Part shown: positions 11,165 to 27,893 of the stretch, piece by piece
Numbering within the stretch: position 1 is the first letter of the stretch
How the letters are laid out: each line of letters opens with the position of its first letter
Source of the DNA: Pelosinus fermentans DSM 17108
Lineage (GTDB): Bacteria; Bacillota; Negativicutes; DSM-13327
DNA length: 64,000 bases
Direction of reading: 5' to 3'
Assembly (NCBI RefSeq): GCF_000271485.2
Contig: NZ_AKVN02000001.1
Location: forward strand, 2,753,501 to 2,817,500
Made by a program: the position numbers and the translations under genes
Notes under the pieces: generated by a model
Told to the model about the DNA's origin: nothing
What the model saw: the letters and a program-made list of their open reading frames with translations, nothing else
Database searches by the model: none

Positions 11165-11315
11165 TAAATTTGGCTACATATAAATAAAAACGGATGGTAT
11201 AAATACCACCCGCAACAAAAGCATAATCATACATGCTGTCATAACCTTACGAACTGCTAATGCGTTGCAAGGTGAGAAGCGGATGGCTTCTACTTAGACT
11301 CAATATTCTTGAGTA
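11165..11315 (-). promoter_or_regulatory. infC leader with attenuator (L20-leader-like)
   Basis: About 150 bases of structured 5' leader precede infC. They include GAAGCCATCCGCTTCTCACC and, near the end, a hairpin CGGGTGGTAT/ATACCATCCG with a T-run (about 11184-11212) that would stop transcription before infC. In Firmicutes this position holds the L20-binding leader. The GGGTGGTA string looks like a T-box element but lacks the full antiterminator. Function is inferred from position and structure. Confidence 0.7.
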
Positions 11316-21245: not shown

Positions 21246-21360
21246 CCATTAGCCATCAATATTAATTTTGCTTATAAAATGATTCGCCTCACAACTTATT
21301 TGATCCTGCAAATCGATACACCAAATTATTTAATTCAACAGTAAACGAATTCAATAAAAA

Positions 21361-21396
21361 CGAAAGAAGGATTCTAATAATAAAATCCTTCTTTCG
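21361..21396 (-). terminator. Terminator after structured element copy 1
   Basis: CGAAAGAAGGATT/AATCCTTCTTTCG continues into TTTTTATT on the minus strand. It lies about 40 bases after the core of the repeated element and about 235 bases before the GGDEF/HD-GYP gene. Confidence 0.85.
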
Positions 21397-21410
21397 CTAA
21401 TGAAATAAGT

Positions 21411-21565
21411 AAACCCATGATATCGTTTCTTTTATATGTCCAAACCTGCCGCTAGCAGGTGGGCATCACAGATTGGCTTTTGCCATCCACTCAAAGGAGG
21501 TCCGACAGCTACCAGATCATTAGATTCCCTATTTATAAAAGTAGGTTGGACATATATAAGATAAC
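21411..21565 (-). ncRNA. Duplicated structured element, copy 1
   Basis: The sequence here shares most of its length with 23503-23658. The core (21434-21555) is closed by inverted ends, TATGTCCAA and TTGGACATA. It contains a hairpin ACCTGC/GCAGGT, a GGCAAAAGCC segment and a conserved block GGGAATCTAATGAT (minus-strand reading). A terminator follows on the minus strand. The layout suggests either a small RNA gene or a riboswitch; I recognise no known class. The rest of 21126-21707 is non-coding apart from the hairpins listed. Confidence 0.6.
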
Positions 21566-21707
21566 ATATATCACAGGTAGATCATTTTCTAATAGTTAAA
21601 CAGCTGTTGATTTTGGAATGTTCTTGGCATTAAACCTTCTTTCAACATTAAATATATAATACCATATCAATTATTAAGATGCAAAGCCATTTGCATAGAA
21701 TATAAAG

Positions 21708-23405
21708 TCAATCCACCTTGTATACTAGTTTGCCATCAAAAAAGGTCATGAGGATTTTCGTCTTATCTATATCAATAGGATTCACCACAAATAAATTTTG
21801 ATCAATAACCACTAGATCAGCAATCTTCCCCACTTTAATAGAACCAATTTCATGTTCCATAAATAAAGTATAGGCACCATTTATAGTAAAACTTTTGATC
21901 ATTTGCTCTACAGTGGCTCGTTCGCCTTTATTTAAAAGATACCTTTCATCATCCATATCTGTAATATCCTCTACGCCATGTAAGGCACCGTTATCAATAT
22001 TACGTGTGACACCAACATCCATCGCTAAGAAAGGATTGGGCACAGCTGTGGCAGGATAATCGGAAGAAGACGCTACAGTGATCCCTTCGCGAAAAAAAGT
22101 ACCTAAAGGAAATTCCAGATTAGCACGTTCACCCATGAACTGATAATCAACATTATACCACCATTTAGGACCTTTAAATTGCCAGTATGGCTGTACGCTA
22201 GCAACTACATTCAGTTCTTTAAAGCGCAATATATCCTTTTGATCTACAAGCTGTAAGTGGGTAATGGTATTACGATAGTCTCCTGCTGCCATTTTATTAT
22301 TAGCGTATTCTAAAGCATCCAATACCTTTCTAGTCGAACCATCGCCCGTCGAGTGAACATGAATTTGCATACCGCACTGATTCACTGTATAAAAAGCATT
22401 CTTTAGATTTTCCATTTCCCACAGAAAATCACCATAATAGTTCTCACCTCTTCCAGCTTTTATACTATAAGGCTCTAATAAATAACTAGTACAGCCTTCA
22501 ATTACCCCATCCGTAAAAAACTTTGCAGTAATGACTTGGAGCAAAGGAGTCTGATACTGTCTCCTCAACTCTTTAATATGCATAAGTTGGCTAAGCAGAT
22601 TCTCTCTGGTATTAACCGTCATAGCGCCACGAACACGCAGCTGCAGTTGTTTCGCTTTTTGCATTTCATCACAAGCTTTAAAAATGACATCAAAAGGCAC
22701 GCTTGCCATACAAAGAATACTCGTAATACCAAAACGATGCATCTTCTTCTGGAAGGCAGTCATCGCAGTAATATATTGATCCAAACTATATTCAGGCAAG
22801 GCAATCAGCCACATAGCCCATTCTTTTAGAGTTCCCCACAACTCACCATTACTCTGATCCGTTTCTATAACGCCGCCCTGAGGTACTTCGGTTTCCGAAG
22901 TTATACCATTTATTTCTAAAGCTTTGGAATTTACCCATAGGGTGTGACCATCATGTGCGCGTAAAACGATAGGAATCTCACTCGTAACAGCATCGAGATA
23001 TTCTTTGCGAGGTCCTTTAATCAACTCTTCACCTGCTAATATACCCCATGACCAGCCTCTGCCATAAACCATTTTAACATCTGGATGCTCTGCAATAAAC
23101 TTCTTTACAGCCTCCACATATCCTTCTATGCTATTTATATTAAATAGCTGAACTTCGTAAAGCTCTGATAAGGATAAACCAGGTGGATGAATGTGACTAT
23201 CGATCAAACCAGGCAGTACCATCTTCCCTCCCAAATCAATGATTTGAGTTTTATTACTTATAAAATTCTGCACTTCCTTATCGCTGCCTGTAAACAAAAT
23301 TGTATTATCCTTAATTGCCACTGCTTGATGTATCTGATCTTGCTCATCAGCGGTATACACTACGCCATTTTTCAATACGATGTCAGCTACCATACAATTA
23401 GTCAA
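21708..23405 (-). CDS. Amidohydrolase, YtcJ-like
   Basis: This protein of about 565 residues belongs to the YtcJ/amidohydrolase-3 group of metal-dependent hydrolases. Visible features are the metal-binding VLPGLIDSHIHPPG near residue 70, MQIHVHSTGDGSTRKVLDA around 350, ITHLQLVD, the late SSDYPATAVPNPF, and the C-terminal beta-strand motif IKVGKIADLVVID. The substrate is unknown. The frame opens at a GTG (23417) that overlaps AGGTGA; TTG at 23403-23405 is eight bases from that site and is preferred. The gene lies between two copies of a structured element, and copy 2 with its terminator immediately precedes it. Confidence 0.8.
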   Translation of the reverse strand: MTNCMVADIVLKNGVVYTADEQDQIHQAVAIKDNTILFTGSDKEVQNFISNKTQIIDLGGKMVLPGLIDSHIHPPGLSLSELYEVQLFNINSIEGYVEAVKKFIAEHPDVKMVYGRGWSWGILAGEELIKGPRKEYLDAVTSEIPIVLRAHDGHTLWVNSKALEINGITSETEVPQGGVIETDQSNGELWGTLKEWAMWLIALPEYSLDQYITAMTAFQKKMHRFGITSILCMASVPFDVIFKACDEMQKAKQLQLRVRGAMTVNTRENLLSQLMHIKELRRQYQTPLLQVITAKFFTDGVIEGCTSYLLEPYSIKAGRGENYYGDFLWEMENLKNAFYTVNQCGMQIHVHSTGDGSTRKVLDALEYANNKMAAGDYRNTITHLQLVDQKDILRFKELNVVASVQPYWQFKGPKWWYNVDYQFMGERANLEFPLGTFFREGITVASSSDYPATAVPNPFLAMDVGVTRNIDNGALHGVEDITDMDDERYLLNKGERATVEQMIKSFTINGAYTLFMEHEIGSIKVGKIADLVVIDQNLFVVNPIDIDKTKILMTFFDGKLVYKVD

Positions 23406-23457
23406 CTTTATATTCACCTGCCTTTTTTCTGCCCTTTCGCAGCATTTTATATAAAGA

Positions 23458-23489
23458 AAAAAAAGACTTACCCTATGATAAGTCCCTTT
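23458..23489 (-). terminator. Terminator between element copy 2 and the amidohydrolase
   Basis: Minus-strand GACTTA/TAAGTC hairpin followed by eight T residues. It sits about 40 bases downstream of the element and about 55 bases upstream of the amidohydrolase start, the arrangement expected of a transcriptional switch. Confidence 0.75.
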
Positions 23490-23502
23490 TCAATAGAAAA
23501 GA

Positions 23503-23658
23503 TAAAGCCCATAATATCGTCTCTTTGATATGTCCAAACCTGCAGCTCGCAGGTGGGCATCCTAGATATGCTTTTGCCTTCCACTCAATGATGGCTCGGC
23601 AGCCAGATATCATTAGATTCCCCAGTTATAAAAGTAGGTTGGACATAAAAAAGATAAC
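23503..23658 (-). ncRNA. Duplicated structured element, copy 2
   Basis: This is the second copy of the element at 21411-21565, in the same orientation about 2.1 kb away. Its core is 23528-23646. The closing stem ATGTCCAA/TTGGACAT, the adjacent hairpin ACCTGC/GCAGGT and the blocks GGGAATCTAATGAT and GGCAAAAGC are conserved. Variable parts change in ways that keep some pairing: here AATGAT/ATCATT encloses GGCT/AGCC. A T-run hairpin and then the amidohydrolase follow. The rest of 23406-23841 shows no gene. Confidence 0.6.
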
Positions 23659-23841
23659 GTGCATTTCAGGCATTTTTTTTACTACGATGTATACATAATA
23701 TCATATGAATCGTACTAGTGCAAAGTCCTTTATAATTTAGTTTTAGGAGCATTTTTCGGTTTAGGAAGGTTAATATACAGGATACGTGCTTATTCTTTAA
23801 AATTCGCATTTTTGCGTTTCAATATATGAATTTTTTCTATC

Positions 23842-27639: not shown

Positions 27640-27893
27640 ATATAGTCAAAGGTAATGACTGGGAATAGTAGATGTTTAGAAATTTTCAGAGAGCCGAAGG
27701 TTGGTGCGATTCGGTAAATTTTAGGCATTGAACTCACCCATGAGCTGCAGCCCGATAATGTAGGGTGAGCCGGAATTCCACCGTTACAGGGATAGATGGT
27801 GTTTGCCATCGAAAAAGGGGGTTCATTTTTGAACCAATTAGGGTGGTACCGCGAGTTAACCTCGTCTCTATTATAGTAGAGACGAGGTTTTTT
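27640..27893 (+). promoter_or_regulatory. T-box leader of leuA (Leu)
   Basis: The leader has a CUC leucine specifier at 27733-27735 in the context GAACTCACC, the antiterminator AGGGTGGTACCGCGAG at 27840-27855, and a terminator AACCTCGTCTCTA/TAGAGACGAGGTT with a T-run ending at 27893. Together with the promoter it fills most of the 27458-27963 gap. Low leucine would raise uncharged tRNA-Leu and switch leuA on. Confidence 0.95.

Follow-up and report, generated by a model that had tools for sequence, protein, structure and literature searches.

The window, by which we mean the whole 64,000-nucleotide stretch of DNA analysed here, contains two homologous elements of Pelosinus that a preliminary description, made from the letters alone, had placed in the same orientation about 2.1 kb apart. 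This arrangement is confirmed: the two bodies, 174-175 nt in length, are 80% identical, lie in the same orientation and are spaced 2094 nt (2.09 kb) apart, and a repeat search finds direct repeats 2093-2094 nt apart, one of 108 nt with 81% identity and one of 87 nt with 77%. The gene order given earlier was also right, with copy 2 standing before an amidohydrolase gene and copy 1 before a GGDEF/HD gene (names from Pfam), all on the minus strand. The features of the locus are listed below, with the elements already labelled as the 6S RNA genes that they very probably are.

23695-23724, minus strand: promoter-like site of copy 2, TTTGCA-18-TATTAT with TG (extended -10), from a consensus scan
23502-23675, minus strand: 6S RNA gene copy 2, type B; 174 nt body; RF00013 71.6 bits, model positions 1-187 of 187
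23634-23647, plus strand: 5' part of the predicted pRNA of copy 2, GUAGGUUGGACAUA, placed from its position in the Rfam alignment
23538-23554, minus strand: 3'-central-bubble hairpin of copy 2 (ACCTGC/GCAGGT), from the sequence and the minimum-energy fold
23458-23491, minus strand: intrinsic terminator-like hairpin of copy 2, from a scan; a hairpin is kept there in orthologues
21708-23417, minus strand: amidohydrolase (Amidohydro_3) gene between the 6S genes, from Pfam; outside the RNA system
21656-21685, minus strand: promoter-like site of copy 1, TTTGCA-18-TATTAT with TG (extended -10), from a consensus scan
21408-21582, minus strand: 6S RNA gene copy 1, type B; 175 nt body; RF00013 67.0 bits, model positions 1-187 of 187
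21541-21554, plus strand: predicted pRNA of copy 1, with the same first 14 nt, placed from its position in the Rfam alignment
21444-21460, minus strand: 3'-central-bubble hairpin of copy 1, from the sequence and the minimum-energy fold
21359-21398, minus strand: intrinsic terminator-like hairpin of copy 1, from a scan; a hairpin is kept there in orthologues

Two further RNA elements lie elsewhere in the window: a T-box leader at 27646-27872 on the plus strand (RF00230, 136 bits), divergent from ABC transporter genes, and a ribosomal protein L20 leader at 11176-11301 on the minus strand (RF00558, 67 bits).

As is well known, 6S RNA is a small RNA that plugs the RNA polymerase of bacteria, and a genome usually has one gene for it. 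The Rfam scan of the whole 64-kb window matched both elements to 6S/SsrS (RF00013), with E values of 3.8e-12 for copy 2 and 4.7e-11 for copy 1, and both copies score above the family's gathering score of 46.4 bits. The preliminary description had called the element unrecognised, and had itself named a match to an existing Rfam family as the result that would overturn this; such a match, well over threshold, is what both copies give. The bodies of 174 and 175 nt also fall inside the length range quoted for 6S RNA, 153-237 bp (Wehner et al. 2014, as cited in PMC7726162). We conclude, with a probability of about 97%, that Pelosinus (Negativicutes) carries here, on the minus strand, two paralogous 6S RNA (ssrS) genes, each transcribed separately. 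The element is an ordinary member of a known RNA family, and the locus supplies two further 6S RNAs.

Folding of the minus-strand RNA gives both copies the rod shape of 6S, in which two helical arms flank a central bubble (copy 1, z -5.73; copy 2, z -3.65; in each case 0 of 200 shuffles were as good). The inverted ends noticed at the outset, TATGTCCAA/TTGGACATA, are present in the sequence and correspond to helix P2 beside the central bubble, while the ACCTGC/GCAGGT hairpin, likewise present, is the one that 6S RNA forms on the 3' side of its central bubble. In B. subtilis 6S-1, a small 3'-central-bubble hairpin is already found in the free RNA (PMC8876501). Compensatory changes among homologues, the absence of which would have counted against a structured RNA, were found in 20 related type B sequences tested over the 55 pairs of the copy-2 structure. 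Double-sided changes occur in 16 of the 55 pairs, and the covariation score is 0.236 compared to 0.166 in shuffles, with 0 of 500 shuffles as high. Standard pairs fill 94.1% of the cells, a measure on which the tested structure is favoured because it was derived from one of the aligned sequences (copy 2); sliding the partners by 1-3 columns makes the pairing fall to 38-46%. An RNAalifold consensus from the same 20-sequence alignment has 45 pairs, 15 of them with double-sided changes, and we regard the fold as supported. The differences between copy 1 and copy 2 tend to spare the central bubble region: they fall at 5 of its 71 columns and at 30 of the 104 outside it (Fisher p 4e-4, with the boundaries of the region drawn by hand).

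The promoter and terminator calls are consensus matches to the sequence and mark predicted transcript ends. Both promoter-like sites match only 9 of the 12 consensus positions, and such matches are no proof of function; the motif of copy 2 recurs upstream of its orthologues in other Pelosinus genomes, and the site of copy 1 is conserved in orthologues. At the other end, the minus-strand hairpin that had been reported after each element at a similar distance does lie about 10 nt past each of them, at 21398-21359 and 23491-23458. The promoter-like site is 19 nt from the 6S body in copy 2 and 73 nt in copy 1, and because of this greater distance copy 1 is likely to have a longer 5' leader or precursor that would need 5' processing. 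Compared to its orthologue L019 in genome G007, where the site is close to the body, copy 1 has some 54 extra nt between site and body (21583-21655); since the stretch is absent in that orthologue, the change is confined to some species.

Copies 1 and 2 have the same predicted pRNA template, TATGTCCAACCTAC, which takes in P2 together with the 5' side of the central bubble. The predicted pRNA, GUAGGUUGG.., has GG at positions 4/5 and an A just upstream, its start site being assigned by alignment position; the pRNAs described elsewhere have a conserved GG and an A just upstream (PMC8414754).

The pair is not peculiar to the window. At about 2.1 kb spacing and with the amidohydrolase between, it is found in 6 of 8 genomes of the genus (the window's own included), and the same kind of pair is present in named records including Pelosinus fermentans JBW45 and P. 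propionicus. In G000 as in G006, spo0A is found some 105 kb away from the pair, and this supports the positional orthology of the pair. A third 6S gene in the same 5.03-Mb genome, about 66 kb from the pair, scores 108 bits and is of a different type, type A.

It could be argued that either copy 1 or copy 2 is a functionless duplicate in decay, as both are of the same type and hence redundant, about 54 nt of additional sequence separate the promoter of copy 1 from its body, and G001 has a degenerate 40-bit copy beside its amidohydrolase. We consider this unlikely. Five other Pelosinus genomes contain orthologues of both, spaced about as in the window, the body of copy 1 is identical to its orthologues in G003 and G004, and both copies keep promoter and terminator signals, the central bubble and the paired helices. 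The weak match in G001 (L104:723-875; 40.1 bits, below threshold) is located about 130 nt before an open frame containing an amidohydrolase that is 76% identical to that of the window, and is possibly, judging from this position, a decaying copy at the ancestral place.

The preliminary description had left the choice between a riboswitch pair and two small RNA genes; the second half of this proposal stands, through the Rfam match to 6S, and the first does not. Each element is upstream of a gene on the same strand, as would be expected if the two were riboswitches, or cis-acting leaders of another kind, that control the amidohydrolase and the GGDEF/HD-GYP gene. However, both elements match the 6S model (RF00013) over its whole length, and each is separated from the next gene by a terminator-like hairpin. 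Moreover, G006 and G008, whose genomes contain no close match to the amidohydrolase anywhere, keep the 6S pair with the copies just 192 and 316 nt apart, and in G001 a type B 6S gene (L026, G001:C46:8307-8481) adjoins apparent tRNA genes on both sides (judged by eye). A leader position conserved before a particular gene, which a riboswitch would lead one to expect, is not what the relatives have: they possess the RNA without those downstream genes. With the Rfam match, the intervening terminator-like hairpins and neighbours that change among relatives, we reject the riboswitch pair as highly improbable. In G005, the amidohydrolase frame between the 6S pair (G005:C65:6036-7469, between loci L015 and L028) has an in-frame stop (TAA), and no match to the first 91 residues exists in the genome; judged by its sequence, the gene may be a pseudogene there.

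A mobile DNA repeat, structured by chance and scattered without regard to genes, would explain why the genome has more than one copy, but this idea, the least credible that we weighed, is refuted by the copy number (only three 6S loci in 5.0 Mb), by a 6S gene order that is conserved across the genus, by the Rfam match and by the lack of any match between the region and 72,556 plasmid records.

Having identified the pair as 6S RNA genes, we can place them among their relatives. A tree of 77 Negativicutes 6S sequences has two sides, A and B, with 100/100 support. Type A has the template ..TTTTGANCCAAC, of the kind TGTTTTGANCCAAC, and type B has ..TATGTYCAACCTAC or close variants; the window pair is type B and, by its position in the tree, descends from the type B side of an old A/B split of 6S RNA in the Negativicutes. 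Against RF00013, the type B copies reach about 70 bits and the type A copy of the same genome 108 bits, and the lower type B scores would leave room for functional divergence from type A.

In 12 multi-copy genomes outside the window's family, the best-scoring copy placed is type A in every case (12 of 12), and the further placed copies in multi-copy genomes outside that family are all type B (15 of 15). Single-copy genomes differ in the type that they have. Type A alone is present in the sampled members of f3, f8, f13, f21, f24, f25, f29 and f30 and in the single-copy members of f20 and f23; type B alone is present in the ten sampled f9 members and in one member each of f4, f11 and f15. In one large non-sporulating family, only type B was found in the sampled genomes.

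Within Pelosinus, the type A gene is missing between conserved flanks in G006 (G006:C1:2110400-2110542, L103) and G008 (G008:C15, L107). At the G006 site, the flanks, present at 78-82% identity, enclose about 140 bases rather than about 395, with no 6S detected there by BLAST or by a permissive Rfam search; G008 looks alike. The possibility that type A was merely missed in these genomes was rejected, as both retain the flanks with no 6S left in the interval, and the comparison of the sequences indicates that type A is lost at the syntenic site in both. G006 and G008 have four B-clade 6S genes instead. We raise, as a tentative suggestion that we think will probably prove wrong, that the Negativicutes inherited two 6S types with different pRNA templates and that type B, the type of the window pair, has a separate job but can replace type A.

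The number of 6S genes was also surveyed across the class, in 200 Negativicutes genomes that are at least 95% complete, using stricter filters that may miss weak copies; at least two 6S matches are present in 35 of the 200. Genomes with at least two 6S genes make up 35 of the 42 that have a Spo0A_C domain and 0 of the 158 that lack one (Fisher p 2e-32, a value that overstates the independent evidence because the genomes are related and genome size also differs). The presence of at least two 6S genes tracks with spo0A, and this is a correlation only. That the keeping of both types goes with sporulation, which forms part of the two-type suggestion, we hold to be equally doubtful. A class in which two 6S types are kept together, lost reciprocally or multiplied to four is a natural test of why some bacteria retain more than one 6S RNA, and it may be of some use for that purpose. 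The pattern of A and B retention, together with the gain and loss of copies, is mildly interesting and is the only part that we consider worth follow-up.

The role of the window pair is likely to be conventional, by analogy with other 6S RNAs: binding of primary-sigma RNA polymerase, followed by release through product-RNA synthesis. On the basis of established 6S biology, the RNA would imitate an open promoter and occupy the primary-sigma RNA polymerase holoenzyme. With the 5' side of the central bubble as template, the polymerase would then make short pRNAs, which are predicted to begin 5'-GUAGGUUGGACAUA.., and this synthesis would break helix P2 and refold the RNA, so that RNA polymerase would be released. 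In the 6S release that has been described, P2 is broken by the synthesis of short pRNAs, for which the central bubble provides the template on its 5' side (PMC8876501, PMC8414754). With a pair of type B genes beside a single type A gene, the cell would probably have supplies of the same activity that differ in timing or dose.

The Pelosinus elements resemble 6S/SsrS (RF00013) in matching the model at full length, in their own length, in the rod with its central bubble, in the 3'-central-bubble hairpin and in having separate promoter and terminator signals. Unlike most bacteria, which have a single 6S, the Pelosinus genome has three copies. Multiple 6S genes per genome are already known: B. subtilis has 6S-1 and 6S-2, Magnetococcus has four 6S genes, and the B. 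cereus group has two in tandem, ssrSA-ssrSB, that are co-transcribed (PMC7726162). Pelosinus is like Bacillus in having several 6S paralogues per genome, tandem in one lineage. However, each Pelosinus copy has its own promoter and terminator signals, in contrast to the co-transcribed tandem of the B. cereus group, and, on the tree of Negativicutes sequences, the tandem pair of Pelosinus is the same type twice, with the other type located 66 kb off.
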